From NCBI RefSeq assembly GCF_015354245.1, contig NZ_JADKYZ010000002.1, positions 434,001 through 498,000 on the forward strand: 64,000 nucleotides of DNA, read 5' to 3'. The position numbers and the translations under genes are program-made. The notes beneath the pieces were generated by a model. That model worked only from the letters and a program-made list of their open reading frames with translations, was not told where the DNA came from and ran no database searches. Source of the DNA: Diaphorobacter caeni. Lineage in GTDB: Bacteria; Pseudomonadota; Gammaproteobacteria; Burkholderiales; Burkholderiaceae_C. Shown here piece by piece: positions 1-21,357 of the stretch; within the stretch, counting starts at the first letter, position 1, and the number at the start of each line of letters is the position of its first letter.

Positions 1-329
1 TGTTCTTCGGCGCGCGCACTCCACAGGAGCTGCCGTACTTCGGTCCTCTGCAGAACCTACCCAAGGATTTCATCGACACCAACTTCGCGTTCTCGCGCGT
101 GGCGGGAAGCCCCAAACGCTACGTGCAGGACATCATCCGCGAGCGCGCCGTAGACCTCGCCGAGCTGCTGCGCGATGACAGCACGCACATCTATGTCTGC
201 GGCCTGAAGAGCATGGAAGAAGGCGTGGTGCTCGCGCTGCGCGACGTGATCGTGCAGGCCGGCCTCGACTGGGACAGCGTGGCGGCCAGGCTCAAACAGC
301 AAGGCCGCCTCCACCTCGAGACTTACTGA
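1..329 (+). CDS. boxA: BoxA-like benzoyl-CoA epoxidase reductase component, C-terminal fragment
   Basis: Partial gene, 5' end outside the window, read in the frame starting at base 3; 108 residues remain before TGA. The fragment has the end of a ferredoxin-NADP reductase fold: an FFGART segment, then the [10 protein letters not shown] stretch that lines the NADP site in FNR-type reductases, and the aromatic C-terminus LETY. That ending and the LPYFGPL segment fit BoxA, the reductase subunit of benzoyl-CoA 2,3-epoxidase in aerobic benzoate breakdown, which has ferredoxin and FNR domains. The N-terminal domains are not visible, so another FNR-family reductase is possible. The stop codon overlaps by 7 bp the 3' end of the convergent cysteine desulfurase gene. 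Confidence 0.6.
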
Positions 330-2164
330 GCGCGCCGCTGCCCGGCGAGCCTGCGCACCACCGTCACCAGCGCGTCGATTTCCTCGAACGTGTTGTAGAA
401 CGCGAGCGAAGGACGCACGGTGGTCTCCACGCCGAAGCGCCGCAGAATCGGCTGCGCGCAATGGTGGCCGGTGCGCACCGCGATGCCTTCGGCGTTGAGC
501 GCCTTCCCCACCTCATCGGTCGTGTAGCCCGCCAAGGTGAACGACAGCACGCTCGCCTTGCCCGGCACCGTGCCGATCAGGCGCAGACCGGGAATGCTGC
601 CGAGCTGCTGCATGCCGTAGTCGACCAGCGCGTGCTCGTAGCGGCTGATGTTCTCGATGCCGAGCCGCTCCACATATTCCAGCGCAGCACCCAGCCCCAC
701 GGCGTCGGCGATGTTGCCGGTGCCCGCCTCGAAGGTGTTGGGCAGTGGCTGGAACACCGTTTTCTCGAAGGTCACATCGGCGATCATGTTGCCGCCGCCC
801 TGCCAGGGCGGCATGTCTTCGAGCACCTTTCGGCGACCCCAGAGCGCGCCGATGCCGGTCGGTGCAAAAATCTTGTGGCCGGAGAACACGAAGAAGTCCG
901 CGCCGATGTCCTGCACGTCGACCGGCGTGTGCGCAATCGACTGCGCGCCATCGACCAGCGTGACAATGCCGCGCCGCCTGGCGATCTCCACCACCTGCTT
1001 GACGGGCACCACCGTGCCCAGCGTGTTCGACACATGGCCAATGGCGACGAGCTTGGTGCGGTCATTGATGAGCTTCTGGTATTCGTCGAGACGGATCTGC
1101 CCCTCGTCGTCCACCGGAATCACGCGCAGCTTCGCACCCTTGGCCTCGGCCAGTTGCTGCCACGGCACGATGTTGGCGTGGTGCTCGAGATGCGAGACGA
1201 TGATCTCGTCGCCTTCGCCCACGTGCTTGCCGCCCCAGCTTTTGGCGACGAGGTTGATCGCCTCGGTCGTGCCGCGCACGAAGATCACCTCGTTCACATC
1301 GGGAGCGTTGATGAAGCGGCGCACCACCTCGCGCGCATGCTCGTAGGCATCCGTCGCGCGCGCGGCCAGCGCATGCGCGGCGCGGTGGATGTTGGAGTTC
1401 TCATGCTCGTAGAAATGTGCGATGCGCTCGATCACCTGACGCGGCTTGTGCGTGGTGGCCGCGTTGTCGAGCCAGATGAGCGGCTTGCCGTTGATGCGCT
1501 CCGAGAGAATCGGAAAGTCGCGCCGCACGGCCTGCACGTCAAAGCCCGGATGGCGCTCATGATGCGACGCGGGCGTTGCGGCCTGCGCGCCATGCGGATG
1601 CGGCTTGGCGGGCGTGACGAAGCCGCTTGGCAACTGCACCGCATCCACAAAGTAGAACTGCGGCGCGCTGCTCACATGGCTCGTCGGGTTGGCCCACGGC
1701 ACACCCGCTGCCGGAGTGCCGACGGGCGCCGCCGCAGTCAGGCCCGAGAGGCGCGGCTCGTATCCCGGAAGCGCCGCAAAGGCCACGTCCGGCACACCAT
1801 TGCCCGCCTGCGCCTTCGGCAGATCAATCTGCGGGCGATGCCCGAGCGCGAGCGCCTGCGCAGGATTGCTCGGCAGCAGGTTGGTGCCGGGAATCTGGCC
1901 TTGGGGAATGGGCGTTCCCGGCAGGTTGGGCGAGAAGCCCGCCGGGCTCGCGAAGGGCGATCCAGGCGGCGCGATGTTGTGCGGCGGTTGCACGCCGAAG
2001 CCACTGAACGCACTGGACACACCGGGTGCACCGGGCGCGTCCGGCGCATTGCGGAAGATCGCCGACGCGAGCTGCGCAAGCAGCTGCGTATCAAGCGGGC
2101 TCTGCAGCTCGTGCCCGATGGCTGCCGGTGCGGCCGAAGGCTGGGTGGGAATGGACGACGTCAA
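323..2164 (-). CDS. Family 2A encapsulin cargo protein, cysteine desulfurase
   Basis: PLP-dependent, SufS-like cysteine desulfurase that releases sulfur from L-cysteine as an enzyme persulfide. From about residue 208 there is a full catalytic domain: LDNAATTH substrate/PLP loop, the [10 protein letters not shown] segment, PLP lysine in FSGHK (about K431) and persulfide cysteine in RTGHHCAQP (about C569). The first ~205 residues are Pro/Ala/Gly-rich and probably disordered, which is the hallmark of family 2A encapsulin cargo, where this domain directs loading into the shell. A short hydrophobic segment, [10 protein letters not shown], near residues 28-37 is a possible docking motif (inference). 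The start chosen is TTG at 2164, preceded at 6-nt spacing by GGAGGAG; an in-frame GTG at 2179 has no Shine-Dalgarno sequence and would add 5 residues. The gene directly follows the shell gene. Confidence 0.9.
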
Positions 2165-2182
2165 GGCGCTCTCCTCCACCGT

Positions 2183-3121
2183 TTACTTGTAGGTGTCCAG
2201 CACGGAATAGTCGTGATAGCGCGTGATCTCCACATCGTCGAGCACGGCAATCGCGTCGGGCGTGAGCACCGCGAGCGAGCAGTACAGCGAGATCAGATAC
2301 GACGCGATCGCGTGGTTGTTGATGCCCATGAAACGCACCGACAGCCCCGGCGCCTGTTCGCCCGGCAGCCCCGGCTGGAACAGCCCCACCACGCCCTGGC
2401 GGCGGTCGCCCACGCGCAGCAGCAGGATCTTGGATTTTCCATCGGCCACCGGCACCTTGTCCGAAGGAATCAGCGGCACGCCGCGCCACGTGATGAACTG
2501 CGATCCGAACAGGCTGACCGTCGGCGGAGGCGTGCCACGGCGCGTCGCTTCGCGGCCGAACGCTGCGATGGTGAGCGGATGCGCGAGAAAGAACGCCGGA
2601 TCCTTCCACACCTTGGTGAGCAGTTCGTCGAGGTCGTCCGGCGTGGGGGCGCCGCTCAGCGGGAAGATGCGCTGCTCGTCGCTCACCTGCGCGAGCAGGC
2701 CGTATTCCGGGTTGTTGATGAGCTCGCTCTCCTGGTTCTCCTTGATGGTCTCGATGGTCAGGCGCAGCTGTTCCTTGATCTGGTCATGCGGGCTGCTGTA
2801 GAGATCGGAGATGCGCGTGTGCACGTCGAGCACGGTGGACACGGCATTCAGAAAGAACTCGCGCGGCTTCTCGTCGTAGTCCACGTAAGTGCGCGGCAGC
2901 TGGTTCTCATGCTCCTTGGCGGTGCATGTGACCTTGATGGCCTCGGGGTTCTTGACCTGATTGACGCGGTAGATGCCCGCCTCCACCGGCACCCACTGCA
3001 GCAGGTGCGTGAGCCAGCGCGGGGTGATGGTCGAGAGCTGTGGCGCGGTCTTGGTCGCGTTGGCCAACTGGCGTGCTGCGTTGTCGCCCAGTGCGGTGGT
3101 GCCGCCTACGGTTGCTGTCAT
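2183..3121 (-). CDS. Family 2A encapsulin nanocompartment shell protein (SrpI-like)
   Basis: A 312-aa HK97-fold shell protein of the family 2A (SrpI-like) encapsulins, which self-assemble into a cytosolic protein cage around cysteine desulfurase. The match is by family recognition: an N-terminal arm, the YDEKPREFFLNA segment, the central EYGLLAQV region and a C-terminal part with RFMGINNHAIASYL. No phage genes surround it, and the next gene is the expected cargo. ATG at 3121 is chosen because AGGAG lies 9 nt upstream; an upstream ATG at 3217 would add 32 residues of unlikely hydrophobic sequence. The stop codon is within 20 bp of either possible start of the cargo gene, so shell and cargo are probably translationally coupled. 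Confidence 0.93.
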   Translation of the reverse strand: MTATVGGTTALGDNAARQLANATKTAPQLSTITPRWLTHLLQWVPVEAGIYRVNQVKNPEAIKVTCTAKEHENQLPRTYVDYDEKPREFFLNAVSTVLDVHTRISDLYSSPHDQIKEQLRLTIETIKENQESELINNPEYGLLAQVSDEQRIFPLSGAPTPDDLDELLTKVWKDPAFFLAHPLTIAAFGREATRRGTPPPTVSLFGSQFITWRGVPLIPSDKVPVADGKSKILLLRVGDRRQGVVGLFQPGLPGEQAPGLSVRFMGINNHAIASYLISLYCSLAVLTPDAIAVLDDVEITRYHDYSVLDTYK

Positions 3122-3213
3122 GGAACAAGGCTCCTGAAGAGATCGGAAGAAGAAAACAAGAAAAGGAAATAGCGAAAGAAGTAGCCGAAGTGTTGGCGAC
3201 GCGGACCACCGCC

Positions 3214-3495
3214 TCAACAGGCTATAGCCGTCAAGCGCAGGTATTGCGTGGCGCGCAGCGCGGCGATCTGATCGGTGCGCGAGAGCAGCTCCGACGCCTT
3301 GATGCCGAGTGCCGACGCGAGCTTGTGCAGCGTGATCAGCGACGGCGTGACCAGCCCGCGCTCCACCTCGCCCACATAGGTGCGATGCAGATCGGAGTGC
3401 GCCGCCAGCATTTCCTGCGACCAGCCGCGCGCCTCGCGCAACTGGCGCACTGCCAGCCCGAAGTCATGGACGAAAGTCTGTGAAGTCATCTGCAT
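3214..3495 (-). CDS. Small XRE-family helix-turn-helix regulator
   Basis: A 93-aa protein made almost entirely of one Cro/C1-type HTH domain (about residues 15-70): LREARGWSQEMLAAHSDL holds helices 1-2 and VERGLVTPSLITL the recognition and following helix. There is no visible ligand or metal domain. It starts 3 bp after the epsC stop codon, and the shell gene follows 92 bp later, so it sits inside the nanocompartment operon and probably regulates it (inference). A second in-frame ATG at 3489 is an alternative start with slightly better spacing from a weak GAAG element. Confidence 0.85.
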   Translation of the reverse strand: MQMTSQTFVHDFGLAVRQLREARGWSQEMLAAHSDLHRTYVGEVERGLVTPSLITLHKLASALGIKASELLSRTDQIAALRATQYLRLTAIAC

Positions 3496-3498
3496 GCT

Positions 3499-4440
3499 TC
3501 ACGCGGCGACGCGCGCCTCGCTGACCGTGGCAGTCCCCGCCGAATCCACATCTTTCTGCAGCCGCGCCTGCGACACGTTGGTGCCGGGCGGCACGTCGTC
3601 GGTGATCCACACGTTGCCGCCGATCACCGCGCCCCTCCCGATCGTCACCCGTCCCAGAATCGTCGCGCCCGCGTAGATCACCACGTCGTCCTGCACGATG
3701 GGATGCCGCGCCCAACCTTTCTGCAGATGGCCTTGCGCATCTTTCGGAAAACGCTTTGCGCCAAGCGTCACCGCCTGGTAGATGCGCACGTTCGCACCGA
3801 TCTGCGCGGTCTCTCCGATCACCACACCCGTGCCGTGATCGATGAAGCAGCCCGAGGCGATCTGCGCGCCTGGATGGATGTCGATGCCGGTCTGGCTGTG
3901 CGCGAGTTCGGAGACGATGCGCGCGAGCAGCGGCAGCTCCAGCCGATAGAGCGTGTGCGCGATGCGGTGGTGGATCAGCGCCAGCACGCCCGGGTAGCTC
4001 AGCACCACCTCGTCCACGCTGCGCGCCGCCGGGTCGCCCTGGAACGCGGCCAGCACATCGGTATCGAGCCATTGCCGCAACTGCGGAAGACTGTGGGCAA
4101 ACTGATGCAGCGCGTTCGTCGCCTGCGCATCGATTTCCTGATCGCTGACCGCACTGCCACGCTGACGGTAGTGCAGCTCGATGCGCGCCTGCGCGAGCAG
4201 CGCCTGCAGCGCGCTGTCGAGCGTGTGGCCGACGTAGAAATCCTCGGTCGCATGCCGCAGCTCGGGCGGCCCGAGCCGCAGCGGAAACAGCACGCCCTTG
4301 AGCGACTCCACCGCACGCGCAATCGCGTCGCGCGAAGGGAATTCGCGGTGCTCGGTATCGGTGCGGTTCTGCTTCTCGCGCCACTGGTCGCGCACCTGCC
4401 GCAGCTGCCTGACGATCTCGGGAATATCGAAGGTACTCAT
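3499..4440 (-). CDS. epsC: Serine O-acetyltransferase EpsC
   Basis: Makes O-acetylserine from serine and acetyl-CoA, the carbon acceptor for sulfide in cysteine synthesis. The 313-aa protein has an alpha-helical N-terminal half and a left-handed beta-helix of hexapeptide repeats from about residue 190 (IHPGAQIASGCFID, VVIGETAQIG, GVTIG-like turns). Catalytic-type histidines are in IDHGTGVVIG and in RHPIV. This is the longer EpsC-type serine acetyltransferase that is often found in family 2A encapsulin loci. ATG at 4440 follows GGAGGA with 7-nt spacing. It lies between the rhodanese gene (20 bp upstream) and the XRE gene (3 bp downstream), so it is likely co-transcribed with the nanocompartment genes. 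Confidence 0.93.
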   Translation of the reverse strand: MSTFDIPEIVRQLRQVRDQWREKQNRTDTEHREFPSRDAIARAVESLKGVLFPLRLGPPELRHATEDFYVGHTLDSALQALLAQARIELHYRQRGSAVSDQEIDAQATNALHQFAHSLPQLRQWLDTDVLAAFQGDPAARSVDEVVLSYPGVLALIHHRIAHTLYRLELPLLARIVSELAHSQTGIDIHPGAQIASGCFIDHGTGVVIGETAQIGANVRIYQAVTLGAKRFPKDAQGHLQKGWARHPIVQDDVVIYAGATILGRVTIGRGAVIGGNVWITDDVPPGTNVSQARLQKDVDSAGTATVSEARVAA

Positions 4441-4460
4441 GGTGCCGTCCTCCGTCTCGA

Positions 4461-4967
4461 TCAGTCCTGCACCCACGGCAGCCCGTGGAAGCGCCAACCG
4501 TTGAAGTGCCCGCGCTGCTGCGCATCGTCGATGTCGCCTTCGAAGCCCTCGCTCACGTTGAACACCCGCGCCACGCCCGCCTTCGCTACCTCCTGCGCCG
4601 CGAGCGCCGAACGCTTGCCGCTGCGGCACAGCAGCAGCACCGGAGGTGCGTGCTCATCGTTCTTGGGCAGCTTGGACACCAGCGCCGCCAGCTCACGCGC
4701 AAAGCGCGGATTGCGGTTCAATGACGTCCCCGTCGCCCAGGCCACATGCAGACTGTCCGGCACATGCCCCACGAACTTGCGCTCCTCGGCCGTGCGCACA
4801 TCGACCAGCACCGCCTGCCCCCGCCGCACCAGCTCCCAAGCCTGCACAGGCGGCACGCTGCCCGCGTAAGGAAGCCCCTCCTCCTGCGCGCTGGCCATGG
4901 CCTGCTGCAGCACAGGCGCCAAATCTGCCACGTCGATATCCGCGATATCCAGTTCCACCGTACTCAT
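4461..4967 (-). CDS. Rhodanese-like sulfurtransferase
   Basis: Single-domain rhodanese of 168 aa. After a ~45-residue N-terminal region the rhodanese fold is visible: VLVDVRTAEER, GHVPDSLHVAW, and the six-residue active-site loop CRSGKR with the persulfide-carrying cysteine (about residue 128). It is probably a sulfane-sulfur carrier or detoxifier in the cytoplasm. It is the first gene of the nanocompartment operon; ATG at 4967 is preceded by GAGGTGA at good spacing. Rhodaneses commonly accompany family 2A encapsulins, so a role in handing sulfur to or from the caged cysteine desulfurase is a fair inference, not shown by the sequence. Confidence 0.92.
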   Translation of the reverse strand: MSTVELDIADIDVADLAPVLQQAMASAQEEGLPYAGSVPPVQAWELVRRGQAVLVDVRTAEERKFVGHVPDSLHVAWATGTSLNRNPRFARELAALVSKLPKNDEHAPPVLLLCRSGKRSALAAQEVAKAGVARVFNVSEGFEGDIDDAQQRGHFNGWRFHGLPWVQD

Positions 4968-5048
4968 GATCGCTCACCTCATTGGTTGCCACATTCCGCC
5001 ATTCGCCATCGGCTGATGGCTATGGACTTCAATGTAGGTGGGCGTTCA

Positions 5049-5080
5049 AATCACAACAAAGAATAAAAAACGATGTGATT
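5049..5080. promoter_or_regulatory. Inverted repeat upstream of nanocompartment operon, candidate operator
   Basis: Perfect 7-bp arms AATCACA and TGTGATT are separated by 18 bp of A-rich sequence, about 80-110 bp upstream of the rhodanese start codon. This is the only AT-rich patch in the 253-bp intergenic region 4968-5220. I could not find a convincing sigma-70 pair here. Binding by the operon's XRE protein is speculation. Confidence 0.35.
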
Positions 5081-5220
5081 GGGTGGAAAGTGCATAAGGC
5101 TGCGCCGCCCAGGCACCCAAGTGCCTCAGCGAGGAATGTGCGCGACTGAACCCGATGCTCTGCAATGCACGAGCGGGGAAGACGCGAAGCGCCTCAAGGC
5201 GTGCTGACGATCTCGGGCGA

Positions 5221-5799
5221 TCAGCTGTTCAACAACCGCGAAGACTTCGGCACATGCGCCATCAGGAACTCCATCTGGTCGGCCAGGATCCGCCGGTTGC
5301 GCAGGATGAAGTCTTCCCAGAGGCTGGGCACGTAGGGCGCGTAGAGCAGCGGCATGTGTGCCTGCTCGGGCGTGCGGGGGCCCTTGCGGTGGTTGCAGGG
5401 GCGGCAGGCGGTGACCACGTTCATCCAGTGGTCCTGGCCGTTTCTTGCGAAAGGCACGATGTGCTCGCGGGTGAGGTCTTCCTCGTGGAAGTGACCGCCG
5501 CAGTAGGCGCAGACGTTGCGGTCGCGGATGAAGAGCTTGCTGTTGCTGAGCGTGGGCTTGAGGTGAAACGGGTCGATGGCTGGAACGCCCTTGGTGCCGA
5601 TGATGCTGCTGACCGCGATCTGGGACTGTTCGCCCGTGACGGCGTTGTGCCCGCCGCGGAACAGCGCCACCTGCGCGCCGAGTTCCCAGCGCACTTCGCC
5701 GGCCGCGTAATGGGTGACCGCCTGTTCCAGCGATACCCACGATTGCGGCAAGCCCTGAGCGGACAGCTTCAACACCTTCACCACACGCCTCCAGTTCAT
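5221..5799 (-). CDS. HNH endonuclease family protein
   Basis: A 192-aa protein with a zinc-bound HNH nuclease domain at about residues 92-145: RDRNVCAYCGGHF carries the first CxxC, LTREHIVPFARNG the HNH-type His pair, and NVVTACRPCNHRKG the second CxxC and final His. This architecture is widespread in bacteria as a housekeeping or orphan HNH protein whose substrate is often unknown; the sequence gives no restriction or intein partner. It is monocistronic by appearance, with its 3' end 253 bp from the nanocompartment operon start, and is divergent from ribF across a 148-bp intergenic region. Confidence 0.85.
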   Translation of the reverse strand: MNWRRVVKVLKLSAQGLPQSWVSLEQAVTHYAAGEVRWELGAQVALFRGGHNAVTGEQSQIAVSSIIGTKGVPAIDPFHLKPTLSNSKLFIRDRNVCAYCGGHFHEEDLTREHIVPFARNGQDHWMNVVTACRPCNHRKGPRTPEQAHMPLLYAPYVPSLWEDFILRNRRILADQMEFLMAHVPKSSRLLNS

Positions 5800-7084: not shown

Positions 7085-9946
7085 ATGTCCGATAAACAGC
7101 AAGCCACGACCACGTCCGACAAAACGGATTACCGCAAGACCCTGAACCTGCCCGACACCCCCTTTCCGATGCGTGGCGACCTGCCCAAGCGCGAGCCGGG
7201 CTGGGTCAAGGAATGGCAGGACGAAGGCATCTACAAGAAGCTGACCGACGCCCGCTGCGGTGCGCCCAAGTTCATCCTGCACGACGGCCCTCCATATGCC
7301 AACGGCCAACTGCACATCGGCCACGCGGTCAACAAGATCCTGAAGGACATGATCGTCAAGAGCCGCCAGCTCGAGGGCTTCAACGCGCTCTACGCACCGG
7401 GCTGGGACTGCCACGGTCTGCCGATCGAGAACGCCATCGAAAAGCTGCATGGCCGCAACCTGCCACGCGACGAGATGCAGGCCAAGAGCCGCGCCTTCGC
7501 GACCGAGCAGATCGCCCAGCAGATGACGGACTTCAAGCGCCTCGGTGTGCTCGGCGACTGGGAGCATCCCTACAAGACGATGAACTTCGAGAACGAAGCC
7601 GGTGAGCTGCGCGCCTTGAAGCGCGTGATGGAGCGCGGCTTCGTCTACCGCGGCCTCAAGCCCGTGTACTGGTGCTTTGACTGCGCATCGTCGCTGGCCG
7701 AATTCGAGATCGAATACCAGGACAAGAAGAGCAACACGCTCGACGTGATGTTCAAGGCGCACGAGCCCGCCAAGCTGGCTGCCGCGTTTGGCCTGCCCCA
7801 GCTCGACAAGGACGCGTTTGTCGTGATCTGGACCACCACCGCGTGGACCATCCCCGCCAACCAGGCGCTGAACCTGAACCCCGAGCTGCCCTACGCGCTG
7901 GTGGACACCTCGCGCGGCCTGCTGATCGTGGCCGAGACGCTGGTGGAAGACACCATGAAGCGCTGGAACCTCGAAGGCAAGGTGCTGGCCGTGACCAAGG
8001 GCGAGAAGCTCGCGGGTCTGGAATTCGAACATCCGCTGTACGACGTGGACGCGGGCTACAAGCGCCTGTCGCCCGTCTATCTGGCCGACTACGCCACCGC
8101 CACCGACGGTACCGGTATCGTCCACTCGGCGCCTGCCTACGGTCTGGACGACTTCCAGTCCTGCATGGCGCACGGCATGAAGCTCGACGAGATCCTGAAT
8201 CCCGTGCAGGGCAACGGTGCCTACGCGCCCGACTTTCCGCTGTTCGGCGGCCAGCACATCTGGAAGGCCGTGCCGGTCATCCTCGAAGCGCTGGACAAGG
8301 CCGGTCGCCTGCTCGGCACCACCGTCATCACCCACAGCTACCCGCACTGCTGGCGCCACAAGACGCCGGTGATCTACCGCGCCGCCGCACAGTGGTTCAT
8401 CCGCATGGACGAAGGCGAAGGCGTGTTCACCAAGGCCGGTGACAAGCCCGAAAAGACACTGCGCCAGATCGCACTCGAAGCCATCGAGCACACCAGCTTC
8501 TATCCCGAAAACGGCAAATCGCGCCTGCGCGACATGATCGCCGGTCGTCCCGACTGGTGCATCTCGCGCCAGCGCAGCTGGGGCGTGCCGATCCCGTTCT
8601 TCCTGCACAAGGATTCGGGCGAGCTGCATCCGCGCACCATGGAAATCCTCGACCAAGCTGTGGAAATCGTCGGCAAGGGCGGCATCGAGGCCTGGAGCCG
8701 CGTGACCACCGAAGAAATCCTCGGCGCTGAAGAAGCCCAAAGCTACACCAAGAGCACCGACATCCTTGAAGTGTGGTTCGACTCCGGCTCCACCTTCTGG
8801 CATGTGCTGCGCGGCACGCACAACGAGATGCACCACGACTCGGGCCCCGAGGCGGACCTGTACCTCGAAGGCCACGACCAACATCGCGGCTGGTTCCACT
8901 CGTCGCTGCTGCTCGCCTCCGCGATCTATGGCCGCGCACCGTACAAGGGCCTGCTCACGCACGGCTTCACGGTGGACGGCCAGGGCAAGAAGATGAGCAA
9001 GTCGCTTGGCAACACCGTCTCGCCGCAAGAAGTGAGCGGCAAGCTGGGCGCGGAAATCATCCGCCTGTGGTGCGCATCGACCGACTACTCGGGCGACCTC
9101 GCCATCGACGACAAGATCCTCGCCCGCGTGGTGGACGGCTACCGCCGCATCCGCAACACGCTGCGCTTCCTGCTCGCCAACGTGAGCGACTTCGACGCCG
9201 CCAAGGACAGCGTGCCGTTCGATCAGATGCTCGAGATCGACCAGTACGCCCTCTCCCGCGCTGCCGCGCTGCAGCAGGACATCCTCGCGCACTACAAGGT
9301 GTACGAATTCCACCCCGTGGTCACCAAACTGCAGCTGTACTGCTCGGAAGACCTCGGCGGTTTCTACCTCGACGTGCTCAAGGACCGCCTCTACACCACG
9401 GGCGAGAAGAGCCACGCGCGCCGCAGCGCGCAGACCGCGCTGCACCAGATCACGCACGCCATGCTGCGCTGGATGGCTCCGTTCCTCAGCTTCACGGCGG
9501 AAGAAGCGTGGAAGGTGTTCGGCTCGTCCGAATCCATCTTCCTTGAAACCTACGGCACCATCGCCTCAGGCGACGACGCGATGAGCGCCAAGTGGGAGCG
9601 CATCCGCGCGATCCGCGACGTGGTCAACAAGGAAATCGAAGCCGTGCGCGCCAGCGGCGCCGTGGGCTCCTCGCTGCAGGCCGAGATCGTCCTCACCGCC
9701 GCGCCGGAAGACCATGCACTGCTCGCGTCGCTGGGCGCCGATCTCAAGTTCGCGCTGATCGTCTCGAAGGTCGAGCTCAAGGCGGGTGATGCACTCGCCG
9801 TCGAAGTCAAGCCATCGCAAGACACCAAGTGCGACCGCTGCTGGCACTACCAGAGCGACGTGGGCGCGAACGCCGAGCACCCCACGCTCTGCGGCCGCTG
9901 CGTGAGCAATCTCTACGGCACCGGCGAAACCCGGTCGTTCGTCTGA
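7085..9946 (+). CDS. ileS: Isoleucyl-tRNA synthetase
   Basis: Charges tRNA-Ile with isoleucine; class I aminoacyl-tRNA synthetase of 953 aa. Signatures seen: the HIGH motif in [12 protein letters not shown] (near residue 70), the editing-domain [11 protein letters not shown] segment, KMSKS in [10 protein letters not shown] (about residue 637), and a C-terminal zinc finger with CDRCWHYQ and [11 protein letters not shown] at 7085 gives the usual MSDK start; an upstream in-frame TTG at 7058 would add nine residues without support. It lies 90 bp after ribF and 2 bp before lspA. Confidence 0.97.
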
Positions 9947-9948
9947 GC

Positions 9949-10446
9949 ATGGCGCGCGGCAGCAGCTCCGGCGGCGCAAGCATCTGGCCCTGGCTCGCCT
10001 GGGCCGTGGTGGTCTTCCTCGCGGACCAGTTCACCAAGGTGCTCATCCTCGGCTACTACAAGCTCGGCGACGCCACGTACATCACGAGCTTCTTCAATGT
10101 CGTGCGCGCCCACAACACCGGCGCGGCGTTCAGCTTTCTCGCCAACGCGGGCGGCTGGCAACGCTGGGTGTTCACCGGCATCGGCGTCGCGGCGGCCGTC
10201 TTCATCGTCTGGCAACTGCGTGCCCACCCGGGTCAGAAGCTGTTCGCGTTCTCGCTCTCCAGCATCCTCGGCGGCGCCATCGGCAACGTCGTGGACCGCC
10301 TGCAGCACGGCTATGTGGTCGATTTTCTCGACTTCCATCTGAACGGTCGCCACTTCCCCGCGTTCAATATTGCGGACAGTGCGATCACCGTGGGAGCGAT
10401 CTGTCTGATCCTCGATGAGCTGCTCAGGGTGAAGCGAAGCAAGTAG
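9949..10446 (+). CDS. lspA: Lipoprotein signal peptidase LspA
   Basis: Inner-membrane aspartyl protease that cleaves prolipoprotein signal peptides. The 165-aa protein has four hydrophobic segments and both catalytic aspartate motifs: GNVVDRL and FNIADSAI. The [13 protein letters not shown] segment is also typical. ATG at 9949 starts 2 bp after the ileS stop codon, giving translational coupling. A strong rho-independent terminator follows at 10477-10511, so lspA closes the operon; coaBC, which often follows in relatives, is absent here. Confidence 0.96.
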
Positions 10447-10476
10447 TTGCCAATCGACATTCAATCACGTATGAAG

Positions 10477-10511
10477 AGCTGAGTTCTATGCAAATGGATC
10501 TCAGCTTTTTT
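10477..10511 (+). terminator. Terminator of ribF-ileS-lspA
   Basis: Perfect 7-bp stem AGCTGAG / CTCAGCT with a 16-nt loop, followed by a run of six T. It lies 30 bp after the lspA stop codon. Confidence 0.85.
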
Positions 10512-10559
10512 CATTCCGTTCAAACAGGTGATTTCCCTGAAAATCCTGCACGCGGAGCA

Positions 10560-10574
10560 GTGGAGAATCTCCAC
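10560..10574. repeat. 15-bp palindrome GTGGAGAATCTCCAC
   Basis: Perfect 7-bp inverted repeat with one central base, immediately before the ATG of the IS3-like remnant. It covers the position of a ribosome binding site and could sequester it, or be an insertion scar. Confidence 0.6.
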
Positions 10575-10575
10575 C

Positions 10576-10707
10576 ATGAAGCAATCACGTTGTACCGGCA
10601 GCCAGATCATCGACGCGCTCAAGCATGTAGAGGTCAACCTGACAGACTCAGCGCTGCGCAGATACATTGGCGTTCGCCACACAGCGGTCCTATCCGTACA
10701 CCAATGA
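10576..10707 (+). pseudogene. IS3-family OrfA N-terminal remnant
   Basis: A 43-codon frame beginning MKQSRCTGSQIIDALKHVE, which closely resembles the start of IS3-group OrfA transposases (K-SRFT--QII--LK-VE). After about 20 residues the similarity ends and a stop follows, so only the beginning of the helix-turn-helix region remains. No OrfB (DDE) domain or matching terminal repeats were found nearby, so this is a decayed fragment. The rest of the 375-bp gap 10447-10821 holds the terminator above and nothing else I recognise. Confidence 0.5.
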
Positions 10708-10821
10708 GCGCCTAATAATGGCCTTATGCGCTGTCTCACGGCTGCAGGACATGGCCGCATGGTTCCACTTCTCGGATCGACGGATTTCGGAGAGATTGCC
10801 CATCCCGCAAGAGGCATGTAC

Positions 10822-11037
10822 ATGACTGACAAATACCCTGATTTTTCGCTCTCTGCAGCCGAGCTGCAGATTCTTCAAAACCATGCCTCCGAGCAAATGC
10901 AGGCTTTCGTCAATGAGGACAGCGCAATGTCATACACGTTGAACGTCACCTTCTCATATTGCGTGTTTGGCCGCACGGTCACCTGCAATGTTTCAGGTGG
11001 ACCACCAGTCGTGATATCGGACGACGTGGGTTTGTGA
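10822..11037 (+). CDS. Small hypothetical protein
   Basis: A 71-aa reading frame beginning MTDKYPDFSLSAAEL, with AAGAGG seven bases upstream of the ATG. Residues 1-30 look helical and acidic, and the C-terminal half (YTLNVTFSYCVFGRTVTCNV) looks like beta strands. There is no signal peptide and no family I recognise. It sits between an IS remnant and a convergent WG-repeat gene, so it may be accessory. The following gap to 11248 holds no supported gene. Confidence 0.45.
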   Translation: MTDKYPDFSLSAAELQILQNHASEQMQAFVNEDSAMSYTLNVTFSYCVFGRTVTCNVSGGPPVVISDDVGL

Positions 11038-11248
11038 AACGCCGTCCGACTTGCTCAGTTCGCGTCAAACAATGAAAGCTGCTCTCTGGTCCACTCCGGC
11101 AACGCGCTGCGCCAGTTGAACAGCCCGATTTAGATGGCGTGTCCCAACCGTGCCGTGCGGTTCCAAGCAACGGTCATGGGCAGCCTCCATGCAAACCGTA
11201 GCCGCGTCGCCATGGCAGAAAGTCCATGCTTTCCAGACAAGCCCGCCC

Positions 11249-14200
11249 TCACTTCGCAAACGTCTTCAAGATCCGTTTGAAATAGAAGCGCCACGCGAAG
11301 GTATAGAAAATCACCACGATGCAGCAGATGCCCAGCCCCACGCTGATCGGGGCGTTGAACAGGAATTTCCAGGCCCAGTAGACCTCGGAATACCCCATGA
11401 GGATGGCGGTGCCCAGTCCCCACCAGACGCCCTCCGCACGCCACACCGCTACCGTAACGACGGCATGCAGGACCAGCGCGAGGACGCCCAGCACGGCGTT
11501 CAGCATCAGCAGCATGCCGGGACGCTGCTCCAGCTCTCCAGCGAACCCGTTCATGGTTTTGGGCTTGTCGTTAGCCTTGCCAAAAATGAGGGCGTCGAGA
11601 ACGAACGCCCAGAACGACGCCTTGCCACGCAGCCCCTCGGGCTTGCCGCTGCTGGAGTTGGCGATGGAGTTGATGAAGTTCTCCGCCAGCGCGTTCCGGG
11701 TCCGCTCGGAAAACGAGTCGCCGGAATCACCGTCGTTCTCATCACCACCTTCCGCTGCCTTCAACCGATCCACCTCCTCCTGAACCTGCGCGCGCAGCGC
11801 CTCCGGCACGTCCTCGATCGCCGAGCTGCGGTCATGCACCGCCGCCACGCAGACCCGCAACGTGCGCAGCTGCGGCTCCAGCTCCTTGAGTCGCCAGCCT
11901 CGATCAGTCACATATTCAACGTAGATGTCTTCGCTCATCATGTCGGCAGGAATCTGCTCCAGCGACTTGGCTCCCTCCTTGTACGCGAGTGCGTAGCGCT
12001 CCGGCGTCATCAGCCTGCGCGGCACGTAGCGAATGGCATCCGCGTCTGCATCCAGCGCGGCCTCCACGATGACGTTGGTGATGCGCTCGCGCGGCATGTC
12101 GGCAAGGCTCAAAGGGCGGCTGCGAGCCTGTGCGATGAGCGTCGCTTCATCCGCATTCGCACCCACGGTGCGTGCAGCCTTGCGCAGCCAGCGCGTGTCC
12201 TCGTCGCCGTTCCATTCGGGGGTATACGACGATTGCAACGACAGCACGCTCGACGCCTCGACGCCTGCTTCCATGTCGCGCCCGATCGCCCGGTATGCGC
12301 AGGCCAGCACATAGTGCATGTTCTGGGCATAGGAGACATGCGGCAATGCCCGATAAGCATCGGCGATGGCGCCCTCGAATTCTTTCGCCCACAGCCTCGA
12401 CCAGGCGCGCAGCTCATGCCAGCGGCTGTGCTCGCGTGGCTCGCCTTCGCTGCTGGCCTCGGCCAGATCCTCGTCGACCAGTTGCGTGGTCACCTCGAGC
12501 TTCAGCGCATCGGGCACGTAGAAAAATGCATTGCGATCGCCCTTCAGCGCCAGCTTGCAGAGCTCCACCGAACGCTGATCCAAAGGGACATGCGCGAGCT
12601 CATTGCCCTCGCGCTCGATCGCCTCGGCGAACAGTTCGGGCGTGACATGCGCCTTCGGAACATGCTCAAGCGAAAGACCGCTGCGCACCGCCTTGCTTGC
12701 CAACTGGGGCGTCACCAATTGCGGCGATGCGTATTGGATGTTTTGCGCATTGGCCTTGATCGCCGTTTTCTGCACCGCATCCGTGCGCAGCCAAAGCGGC
12801 ACATCACCCAGCGGAGCATGGTTTCTCAATGCCTGCTTCACGCGCTCCTCTTCGAGCAATCCGCCCCACACGCTGCGCAGACTTTCGTAGTTCCATTTGG
12901 TCGGCAGCTTGCCATGCTCCTTGTCAGCACGGTCCCAGCTCCAGTCATCGGCATACAGCGAGCGGGCCAGCTGCAGGCCCTCGGCAGTCATGCAGATGAC
13001 GGGGATCTGCGCGGCATCCTCCGCGCTGCGGCGTATCAGGCGCTCAAGGCGTTCCGGTGTCTGAAAACGCGCCGGAGCCCACTCCAACTCGCTGACATGC
13101 GCGTTCACCGCGTGATCGACGATCTCGTCATCCAGCCATTGCTCAGGCACCGCGCCGAGATAACCACCGCCCGTGGCGACGGCCGCATACCAGCCCTCCC
13201 GCGTAGTGGGCAGGTTGTCGGGCGAGAGCTCGGACGGCTCGTCAGCGGCCGCATCGTCAATGCCCTCCGCCGACTCATCCACATCAACTTCATCTGCGAC
13301 GTGATCTCCATCCCCGCGCGCCGCCTGCGCCACGCGCAGCGCATCCATGCTGGGCGCGGTCTGCAGCCACAGTTCATGCCACATGTCACCATCGCCGGAA
13401 TCAGAATGCACGTAGAGGCTCAGCCAGACCTGACGCGACTCGGCCAGCGCACCGCTGTCGCCGGGCAATGCCGCACCCATCGGCACCGGCCAGCCCGGCC
13501 TCAGCTCACTTCCGTACAGCTGCGGCGCTGCGTCCTCGGGATCATTGTCGGGCGCGCCGAATCGGGCACCAAGCAACTGCAGCACCTGATCGCGCGTCGC
13601 GTCGAGCAGCGCGCCCTGATTGACGCTCAGAAAGTCATACGTTCCGTTGTGCTCTTCGTCCACATAGCAGCGCATGATGCGGCGGCGAACGGTGGTGGCG
13701 CGGCGGTCCTCGGCTTCGGAATCTGCGGCATCGTCATCATCGTCGTCTTCCTCCCCTTCTTCATCCTCCGCATCCCGAGCGGCACCGCTGGCAGCCAGCG
13801 CACGCAGCTTTTCCTCCGTCTCCTGCAACATGGATTGCGCGAGCGGCACCACCTCCTGCAGGCTGTCGATGCGCTGGAAATACTCTTCGGCTGGTTTCTC
13901 GAAAAAGCGCGCCGGGGCTGTGCATTCGCCATCCTCCGGCGTGCTCTGCCACAGGGGGTGATCACTGCCTTCGGCGCGCAGCGTGACGCGTCCGTCGCCA
14001 TAGTCCGCGCGATAGACGACCGTGGCGTCGCGGTCGATCCAGGCGAGCTGCGCTCCATCGCGCGCGATGAAGGGCACAAGCGGCGTCTTCGGCTGCGCGG
14101 GCACGATCCAGTCCTCTTCATTGGTGAGCGGTTCCACCAGATCCTCCGGCGGCGCAACGAAACTTCCGTCCGTGTGCAGCAGGCCCCAACGGCCAGACGG

Positions 14201-15187
14201 ATCGACTCGTTCCGAAGTGCGCGCCACGGCGAATTCGCCGGTGGTCCGGAAATCCTCGCCATAGGCAAGAGACGGTGTGGGAAGCTCGGTACCATCGATT
14301 CGGATGTAGCGGTCACCGTTGTAGTTGTTGACCGCGATGCCGCAGGCCAAGCGCTTACCAAGATGCTTCGATCCCTGGAACAGCTCGCGCCCCGAGGTGT
14401 CCATGTATCCTGACGAAGACGACGACGAGTAGGAATAACTGTCGCGCTCCTTCATGAACCAGACATAGCCGTTGTCGTCGAAGTCATCCAGACGGTAATA
14501 AGTCGGCTCCACCACCCATTCGCCGCGCGAGTTGATGACGCCGTAGGTCTTGTCGTCACCTCCTGCCCCGACAACGGCGACATCGTGCACACCGAAATGC
14601 CCTTGGTATTCAAACTGCGGCTCGATCGCCCATTGCCCACTGCGGTTCACAAAGCCAAAGCGGCGCTTGCGGTTCTTGTCGTGCCCCACGGCACACGCCA
14701 GCCCGTTGTCACCGAAGTAAGCGACATGCATGAACGCGGTGTCGCTCACAAAATGCCCGCTGGCGTCGATCACGCGCCATTGCATCTTGTCGACCTTGAC
14801 CGCCGCCACGCCGCCATTCATGGCATGCGCCTCCGCGAACTGCGGTGCAATCACCACCTCGCCCGCCAGATTCATGTAGCCCCAAAGATCATCACGCTTG
14901 AATCGCGACAGCCCCTCTGCCGAAAACGCACGCGCGTCCTGCAGCTGCGGCTCAACCACCCAGTGGCCCTTGCCATCGACATAGCCCCACAGACCATTGC
15001 GCGCCTTGGCCGCACCGATCCAGCCGCCCCGCCCATCCGCCGTGAAACCCTGGGTCTTCTGCACCCCGTGCAGTGGAAGGTGAATGCGATCGCCATCGAC
15101 GATCAGAATCTGCTGGACTGACTTGTCCGCACGCAGCGGAATACACAGCAGACGCGGCGGCTGCGCGGGTTTCGACGAATCGTTCAT
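11249..15187 (-). CDS. WG-repeat protein with DUF4116-like repeats and C-terminal membrane segments
   Basis: Very large (1312 aa) multidomain protein of unknown function. Residues ~55-360 hold five or so WG (KWG) repeats, e.g. LWGYVDGKGHWVVEPQ, LWGYMNLAGEVVIAPQF and RFGFVNRSGQWAIEPQF, a beta-propeller-like array. A very acidic linker (EDEEGEEDDDDDDAADSE) follows near residue 500. A long helical middle resembles DUF4116 repeats (AFFYVPDALKLEV, ELAHVPLDQRSVELC). The last ~100 residues contain three hydrophobic helices and end in a basic tail, so the C-terminus is probably in the inner membrane. ATG at 15187 is chosen over ATG 15205 because GGAGGG lies between them. Long single-gene unit, divergent from the protease gene at 15449. 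Confidence 0.8.
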   Translation of the reverse strand: MNDSSKPAQPPRLLCIPLRADKSVQQILIVDGDRIHLPLHGVQKTQGFTADGRGGWIGAAKARNGLWGYVDGKGHWVVEPQLQDARAFSAEGLSRFKRDDLWGYMNLAGEVVIAPQFAEAHAMNGGVAAVKVDKMQWRVIDASGHFVSDTAFMHVAYFGDNGLACAVGHDKNRKRRFGFVNRSGQWAIEPQFEYQGHFGVHDVAVVGAGGDDKTYGVINSRGEWVVEPTYYRLDDFDDNGYVWFMKERDSYSYSSSSSSGYMDTSGRELFQGSKHLGKRLACGIAVNNYNGDRYIRIDGTELPTPSLAYGEDFRTTGEFAVARTSERVDPSGRWGLLHTDGSFVAPPEDLVEPLTNEEDWIVPAQPKTPLVPFIARDGAQLAWIDRDATVVYRADYGDGRVTLRAEGSDHPLWQSTPEDGECTAPARFFEKPAEEYFQRIDSLQEVVPLAQSMLQETEEKLRALAASGAARDAEDEEGEEDDDDDDAADSEAEDRRATTVRRRIMRCYVDEEHNGTYDFLSVNQGALLDATRDQVLQLLGARFGAPDNDPEDAAPQLYGSELRPGWPVPMGAALPGDSGALAESRQVWLSLYVHSDSGDGDMWHELWLQTAPSMDALRVAQAARGDGDHVADEVDVDESAEGIDDAAADEPSELSPDNLPTTREGWYAAVATGGGYLGAVPEQWLDDEIVDHAVNAHVSELEWAPARFQTPERLERLIRRSAEDAAQIPVICMTAEGLQLARSLYADDWSWDRADKEHGKLPTKWNYESLRSVWGGLLEEERVKQALRNHAPLGDVPLWLRTDAVQKTAIKANAQNIQYASPQLVTPQLASKAVRSGLSLEHVPKAHVTPELFAEAIEREGNELAHVPLDQRSVELCKLALKGDRNAFFYVPDALKLEVTTQLVDEDLAEASSEGEPREHSRWHELRAWSRLWAKEFEGAIADAYRALPHVSYAQNMHYVLACAYRAIGRDMEAGVEASSVLSLQSSYTPEWNGDEDTRWLRKAARTVGANADEATLIAQARSRPLSLADMPRERITNVIVEAALDADADAIRYVPRRLMTPERYALAYKEGAKSLEQIPADMMSEDIYVEYVTDRGWRLKELEPQLRTLRVCVAAVHDRSSAIEDVPEALRAQVQEEVDRLKAAEGGDENDGDSGDSFSERTRNALAENFINSIANSSSGKPEGLRGKASFWAFVLDALIFGKANDKPKTMNGFAGELEQRPGMLLMLNAVLGVLALVLHAVVTVAVWRAEGVWWGLGTAILMGYSEVYWAWKFLFNAPISVGLGICCIVVIFYTFAWRFYFKRILKTFAK

Positions 15188-20346: not shown

Positions 20347-21357
20347 ATGAAACACCGCATCCAGCAACTCACGCGCGTCACCGCGCTGGCACTCGGTCTC
20401 GTCGCTAGCAGCGCGTTCGCGCAGACCGCCATCTGCTACAACTGCCCGACTGAATGGGCCGACTGGGGCACGCAGATCAAGGCCATCAAAGCCAAGACCG
20501 GCGTGACCGTTCCGCCCGACAACAAGAATTCCGGTCAGTCGCTGGCCCAGCTCGTCGCCGAAAAGGCCAGCCCCGTGGCGGACATGACCTACGTGGGCGT
20601 GACCTTCGCCTACCAGGCGATGAAGGACGGCGTGGTCCAGCCTTACAAGCCCGCGCAGTTCGCCGACATTCCCGATGGCCTCAAGGACCCGGCGGGCCAC
20701 TGGTTCGCGATCCACTCCGGCACGATGGGGTTCATGGTCAACGTCGATGCGCTCGGCGGCAAGCCCGTGCCCAAGTCGTGGGCCGATCTGCTCAAGCCCG
20801 ACTACAAGGGCCTCATCGGTTACCTCGATCCGGCATCGGCCTTCGTCGGCTACGTGGGAGCGGTCGCCGTCAACCAGGCGCGCGGCGGCACGCTCGAGAA
20901 CTTCGGTCCCGGCATCGACTACTTCAAGCAGCTCAAGAAGAACGACCCGATCGTTCCGAAACAGACCGCCTACGCGCGCGTGCTCTCGGGCGAAATCGCC
21001 ATCCTGCTCGACTACGACTTCAACGCCTACCGTGCCAAGTACAAGGACAAGGCCAACGTCGAATTCGTGATCCCCGCGGAAGGCTCGGTGGTCGTCCCCT
21101 ACGTGATGAGTCTGGTGAACAAGGCGCCGCACGCGGCGGACGCGAAAAAGGTGCTGGACTTCGTGCTCTCCGACGAAGGCCAGACCATCTGGGCGAACGC
21201 CTATCTGCGCCCGGTGCGCAACATCGCGATGCCCAAGGACATTCAGGCCCGCTTCCTGCCCGCGAGCGAATACGCGCGCGCCAAGACCGTGGACTACGGC
21301 AAGATGGCCACCGCTCAGAAAGCGTTTTCCGATCGCTATCTGAAAGACGTCCAGTAA
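20347..21357 (+). CDS. ABC transporter periplasmic substrate-binding protein
   Basis: A 336-aa extracellular solute-binding protein with a Sec signal peptide (about residues 1-25, ending SSAFA). The mature protein belongs to the iron/polyamine/phosphonate-type cluster (class II binding fold): VADMTYVGVTFAYQAMKDGVV, GHWFAIHSGTMGFMVNVDAL and a DLLKPDYKGLIGYLDP segment typical of that group. The mature N-terminus contains a close cysteine pair, ICYNCP. The substrate is not readable, but the terminal phosphodiesterase gene suggests an organophosphate such as a phosphodiester or phosphonate. Confidence 0.88.
   Translation: MKHRIQQLTRVTALALGLVASSAFAQTAICYNCPTEWADWGTQIKAIKAKTGVTVPPDNKNSGQSLAQLVAEKASPVADMTYVGVTFAYQAMKDGVVQPYKPAQFADIPDGLKDPAGHWFAIHSGTMGFMVNVDALGGKPVPKSWADLLKPDYKGLIGYLDPASAFVGYVGAVAVNQARGGTLENFGPGIDYFKQLKKNDPIVPKQTAYARVLSGEIAILLDYDFNAYRAKYKDKANVEFVIPAEGSVVVPYVMSLVNKAPHAADAKKVLDFVLSDEGQTIWANAYLRPVRNIAMPKDIQARFLPASEYARAKTVDYGKMATAQKAFSDRYLKDVQ

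Follow-up and report, generated by a model that had tools for sequence, protein, structure and literature searches.

A standard family 2A desulfurase encapsulin operon in Diaphorobacter caeni

The operon at positions 323-4967 of a 64,000-nucleotide stretch of the Diaphorobacter caeni genome (the window, by which the whole stretch is meant) is a standard, known family 2A desulfurase encapsulin operon and is ordinary for its lineage. A preliminary description had presented it as a candidate for an unusual system, which was not sustained: of the 80 nearest relatives, these being the best 80 of 561 confirmed shell stretches in genome contigs, 74 carry all five genes with order and strand unchanged. 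We take the genera of these 80 to belong to the Burkholderiales. The operon is of interest as a published sulfur-cage operon that is common in Burkholderiales relatives and whose helper genes vary between loci. It is quite probable that the shell-caged desulfurase serves to store sulfur, with the rhodanese, EpsC and XRE proteins as helpers. The survey of Giessen and Andreas catalogues 1281 family 2A desulfurase operons (Giessen and Andreas, 2021).

The five open reading frames fill window positions 323-4967 on the minus strand, with gaps of 20, 3, 92 and 3 bp, in agreement with the five-gene operon first proposed. In order of transcription they encode a rhodanese-like protein of 168 amino acids (4461-4967; PF00581, 52.8 bits, cut-off 22.2) with the active-site loop CRSGKR, a serine O-acetyltransferase of the EpsC type of 313 amino acids (3499-4440; NF041874, 164.5 bits, cut-off 150), a short XRE/HTH_3 DNA-binding protein of 93 amino acids (3214-3495; PF01381 (HTH_3), 55.9 bits, cut-off 23), the encapsulin shell of 312 amino acids (2183-3121) and the cargo cysteine desulfurase (323-2179). 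For the acetyltransferase and the shell the start was placed at the ATG with a ribosome-binding-like stretch in front of it; the open reading frame list begins both further upstream. Pfam matches across the five genes were to SrpI-like, Aminotran_5, Rhodanese, HTH_3 and Hexapep. A consensus scan of positions 1-5400 on both strands returned no terminator-like and no sigma-70-like sites (shuffled sequences expect 3.0 and 0.5, respectively), so that no consensus promoter was found for the operon. Its layout suggests that the five genes are co-transcribed.

The operon is met tail to tail by an aerobic benzoyl-CoA cluster consisting of a BoxR-like regulator, BoxC, BoxB and BoxA, each scoring over its NCBIfam cut-off. 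This cluster, at positions 8630-14329 of locus L002, converges on the encapsulin operon and ends at window position 329, where the BoxA and desulfurase genes overlap by 7 bases (323-329). No link to sulfur metabolism was found among the NCBIfam matches of the Box cluster genes. On the other side, upstream of the operon, lies an open reading frame of 192 amino acids (5221-5799) that matches only the middle parts of the IscB/Cas9d models of NCBIfam, far below cut-off, and is probably a plain HNH endonuclease.

Both proteins that define the system were correctly named from the outset. The shell scores 524.4 bits with the family 2A (SrpI-type) model NF041162, for which the curated cut-off is 380, and 340.5 bits with PF19307 (cut-off 22.8). 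It also exceeds the cut-off of the 2B model, NF041163, at 417.2 bits (cut-off 400), which is lower than its 2A score; the best 2B-model stretch begins at profile position 211 of 450, and the cNMP-binding domain that marks 2B shells is absent, the Pfam search of the shell having matched SrpI-like only. Among solved encapsulin shells the best match is 8t6r_A (E = 3e-164), which we take to be the shell of the sulfur-storing encapsulin of Acinetobacter baumannii, and SrpI itself, 6x8m_A, is matched at E = 4.9e-145. The match to these shells spans residues 9-307 of 312, and an HK97 fold is predicted.

The desulfurase scores 877.9 bits with the cargo model NF041166 (curated cut-off 800), and its catalytic domain is SufS-like (sufS TIGR01979, 558.6 bits, cut-off 475.1). 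This domain is preceded by a long Pro/Ala-rich N-terminal part that carries two motifs resembling those of the SrpI cargo: LAQLASAIF and APQFYFVDA in the window, compared with LARLANEFFS and AASPYYFLDG as published (PMC8049743). All 78 cargo frames that reach 1500 bases matched a pattern for the first motif and 60 of them one for the second, counts that leave out two shorter frames (L066 and L072) and rest on our own regular expressions, used without a chance control and loosened after a first run, on misplaced starts, had matched a minority only. Translation may not begin at GTG 2179, because an RBS-like GGAGGAG, seen by eye, directly precedes an in-frame TTG downstream at 2164, which may be the actual start. 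The sole cysteine of the protein sits in RTGHHC, presumably the SufS catalytic loop; RTGHHC occurs in 78 of 80 cargo frames, as does SGHK. At the level of sequence, then, the gene identities, the motifs of the targeting region, the catalytic motifs and the conserved order are in place, and the cargo is likely to be loaded through its N-terminal part.

The shells of the best 80 of 561 relatives are 89-96% identical to that of the window. In this set the XRE gene alone is missing from three loci (L008, L041 and L045), and in three others (L013, L025 and L033) genes are missing where the contig ends. A wider set was assembled by adding a family draw, in which 28 of 150 genomes had a match (own genome counted), and an order draw (40 of 399). 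A phylum draw (17 of 398) overlapped the others, and its matches outside the order, which are short loci, were kept out of the table. Also omitted were G003, whose shell is split and below cut-off, and G757, likewise below cut-off. The resulting 146 loci, including the window, have 142 distinct shells. All five genes occur in order in 99 of these distinct loci, 21 lack only XRE and 22 have fewer; for the 62 from G-numbered genomes the corresponding numbers are 25 with all five and 18 without XRE only. These absences are upper bounds, since contig ends truncate some of the loci and the searches used the window's own proteins as queries.

A few loci depart from the usual gene structure. In a Variovorax MAG (L071:2216-5092) shell and cargo share one open frame of 958 codons, from which the usual shell stop is absent; this reflects either a fusion of the two proteins or a fault in the assembly. 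The family 2A shell gene of G003 (C1:1338662-1339545) is divided between two frames, in pieces that overlap; the gene may be broken, or the sequencing may have introduced an error. Loci L102-L109, from genomes G176, G290, G298 and G414 of another family of the phylum, have shell frames of 471-520 amino acids whose match to the 2A model is split in two by an insert.

Cysteine made outside the cage by a complete module had been part of the original proposal. This part fails, since none of the five genes encodes a cysteine synthase and both CysK/CysM genes that exceed the TIGR01136 cut-off lie elsewhere (C32:23893 and C12:794949). The operon would therefore add to the supply of O-acetylserine and leave the final step towards cysteine to the rest of the cell. 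The operon acetyltransferase itself falls under the cysE cut-off of TIGR01172 (210.65) with 169.9 bits, or 172.1 in the genome search; a second acetyltransferase, CysE, encoded on contig C32, exceeds it with 239.5 bits. Among the accessory genes of family 2A desulfurase operons, those for serine O-acetyltransferases and rhodaneses show the strongest enrichment (Giessen and Andreas, 2021).

If these parts act together, cage assembly, cargo loading, storage, sulfur flow and regulation could proceed as follows. The shell protein would assemble into a small cage, which for SrpI is T=1 and about 25 nm across, and the desulfurase would be brought into it by its N-terminal tail. The caged enzyme would convert cysteine to alanine and sulfur in the form of persulfide, and the cage would retain this sulfur, probably in the zero-valent state. 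Outside, the co-made rhodanese would take up or pass on sulfane sulfur; O-acetylserine from EpsC, together with a cysteine synthase encoded elsewhere, would yield the cysteine that feeds the cage; and the XRE protein would tune the operon.

Nichols et al. (2021; PMC8049743) describe the cage together with its desulfurase cargo, which is loaded by means of an N-terminal domain and is more active when caged. A paper from 2025 cites desulfurase encapsulins as sulfur storage (PMC12407261). Against storage we count the finding that Synechococcus knockouts of SrpI and the desulfurase grew normally in replete and in sulfur-starved medium (PMC8049743). According to the same source the Synechococcus system is up-regulated on starvation (PMC8049743), which fits awkwardly with a simple role of storing sulfur when it is abundant. 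Giessen and Andreas (2021) proposed gated transfer, in which the cage is not a store; only the co-encoded rhodanese would take the sulfur, for chosen acceptors. All 79 rhodanese frames recovered (from the window and 78 relatives) contain the CRSGKR loop, in keeping with such a transfer station. The rhodanese was, however, detected by tblastn with window proteins as query in 122 of 142 distinct loci and not in the other 20, absences that are due partly to contig ends and partly to sequences too divergent for the query, as on pANL; from these 20 the rhodanese may not be obligatory. As the later paper gives storage as the role (PMC12407261), we regard gated transfer as a possibility to be taken seriously, though a doubtful one.

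Nichols et al. also raise the possibility that the cage curbs wasteful breakdown of cysteine by controlling access to the desulfurase (Nichols et al., 2021; PMC8049743), with EpsC making up the losses. As this would lead one to expect, 137 of the 142 distinct loci have the acetyltransferase gene ahead of the shell, but caging raised the activity of the enzyme in Synechococcus (PMC8049743), and we think a cysteine-sparing role improbable. As for a chance array of unrelated neighbours, or a mis-annotated phage capsid gene, the HK97 fold is common to encapsulin shells and phage capsids, and capsids turn up as false positives in encapsulin searches. With both shell and cargo over their curated cut-offs and the gene order kept in 74 of the 80 relatives noted above, this explanation was discarded, its likelihood being negligible. 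Sulfur storage in a desulfurase-loaded cage is the reading that we retain.

Regulation is the least documented part of the operon, and XRE is patchy across loci: it was found in 103 of the 137 distinct loci that have the acetyltransferase (window counted), or 103 of all 142. A candidate promoter element, TTTTTATTCTTTG, lies on the minus strand at 5057-5069, beginning 102 bp upstream of the rhodanese ATG, and is followed by TACATT at 5031-5036. The upstream pattern has the consensus TTTTTATTCGTTTG, then 17 weakly conserved bases and a CcTAnAtTG-like block. With a 50-column model for which the window served as seed, 66 of 79 rhodanese-upstream regions (the window and 78 relatives) score above 10, and the 13-column core scores 22.9 in the window versus 11.9 in the best of 79 shuffled regions. 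The exact 14-mer TTTTTATTCGTTTK gave five matches in four of six relatives' genomes and none in the other two; four of the five, judged by position, are at the encapsulin operon.

A sulfur regulon was considered as the meaning of this element and rejected. The 12-mer TTTTTATTCNTT has four matches in the own genome, one of them at the operon, compared with one for a reversed-pattern control. The other three lie in the end part of a hairpin-like stretch past a minus-strand open reading frame, just before a porin-like frame and inside a frame of the opposite strand, and no recognised sulfur gene was seen at these sites in the frames read by eye. Upstream of sbp- and cysI-type genes the element is weak or missing, with scores of at most 12.9 in the 13-column model versus 22.9 for the window operon, a weak negative because the gene starts were guessed and the genes are perhaps not first in their operons. 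Upstream regions were scored for 9 sbp-type loci out of 16 that were fetched and for 8 NIR_SIR loci out of 24, the latter being one per genome and taken as cysI. CysB-type control of the operon may exist. Elsewhere in the window, positions 20716-21321 match the sulfate-binding protein family TIGR00971 weakly (27.6 bits, cut-off 155.5).

It is conceivable, though we think it unlikely, that XRE is a dedicated local regulator acting on the TTTTTATTCGTTTG-like element and that these operons follow a signal of their own, such as cage sulfur or persulfide level, rather than the general cysteine regulon. The sequence ahead of the rhodanese is readable in 122 distinct loci; among these the element (score at least 14) accompanies XRE in 75 of 101 loci versus 3 of 21 without XRE (Fisher p = 4e-7), which is not a fair test because 79 of these regions served to train the model. 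Outside the training set, leaving out two loci that copy training loci, the element occurs in 9 of 25 with XRE versus 2 of 18 without, a difference that is not significant (p = 0.086). A tree-based test of independent pairs had just two pairs on supported branches and hence no power. At the same threshold 26 of the 101 XRE-bearing operons lack the element, and of the close relatives without XRE, L045 has a perfect element, L041 a weak one and L008 none. Given the non-significant split, the powerless tree test, the 26 exceptions and L045, the pairing is a lead and not a result. A literature search that covered few subscription papers found, among the papers listed, no published XRE-type regulator of encapsulin operons. 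If XRE and the element do form a regulatory pair, they would offer an easy handle on which signal switches the cages on.

The known system to which the operon can be compared gene by gene is that on plasmid pANL of Synechococcus elongatus PCC 7942. Its SrpI is 73.3% identical to the window shell over 95% of the query, and it likewise has a desulfurase cargo, an EpsC gene beside srpI, whose product is 53% identical to the window acetyltransferase over the matched part, and a rhodanese-like gene nearby. The order on pANL is cysK-epsC-srpI-cyd-rhodanese, whereas in the window the rhodanese comes first, cysK is absent and there is an additional XRE gene. Benisch and co-workers reportedly described a sulfur-storing encapsulin of Acinetobacter baumannii in 2024. 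The A. baumannii shell is 80.5% identical to the window shell over 96% of the query; for the window system sulfur storage is a prediction. Nothing was found, among the best 80 of 561 relatives, that distinguishes the window from other family 2A operons of the Burkholderiales. These other operons, from Comamonas, Variovorax, Acidovorax, Delftia, Duganella, Herbaspirillum and further genera, share the five-gene layout in 74 of the 80 cases.
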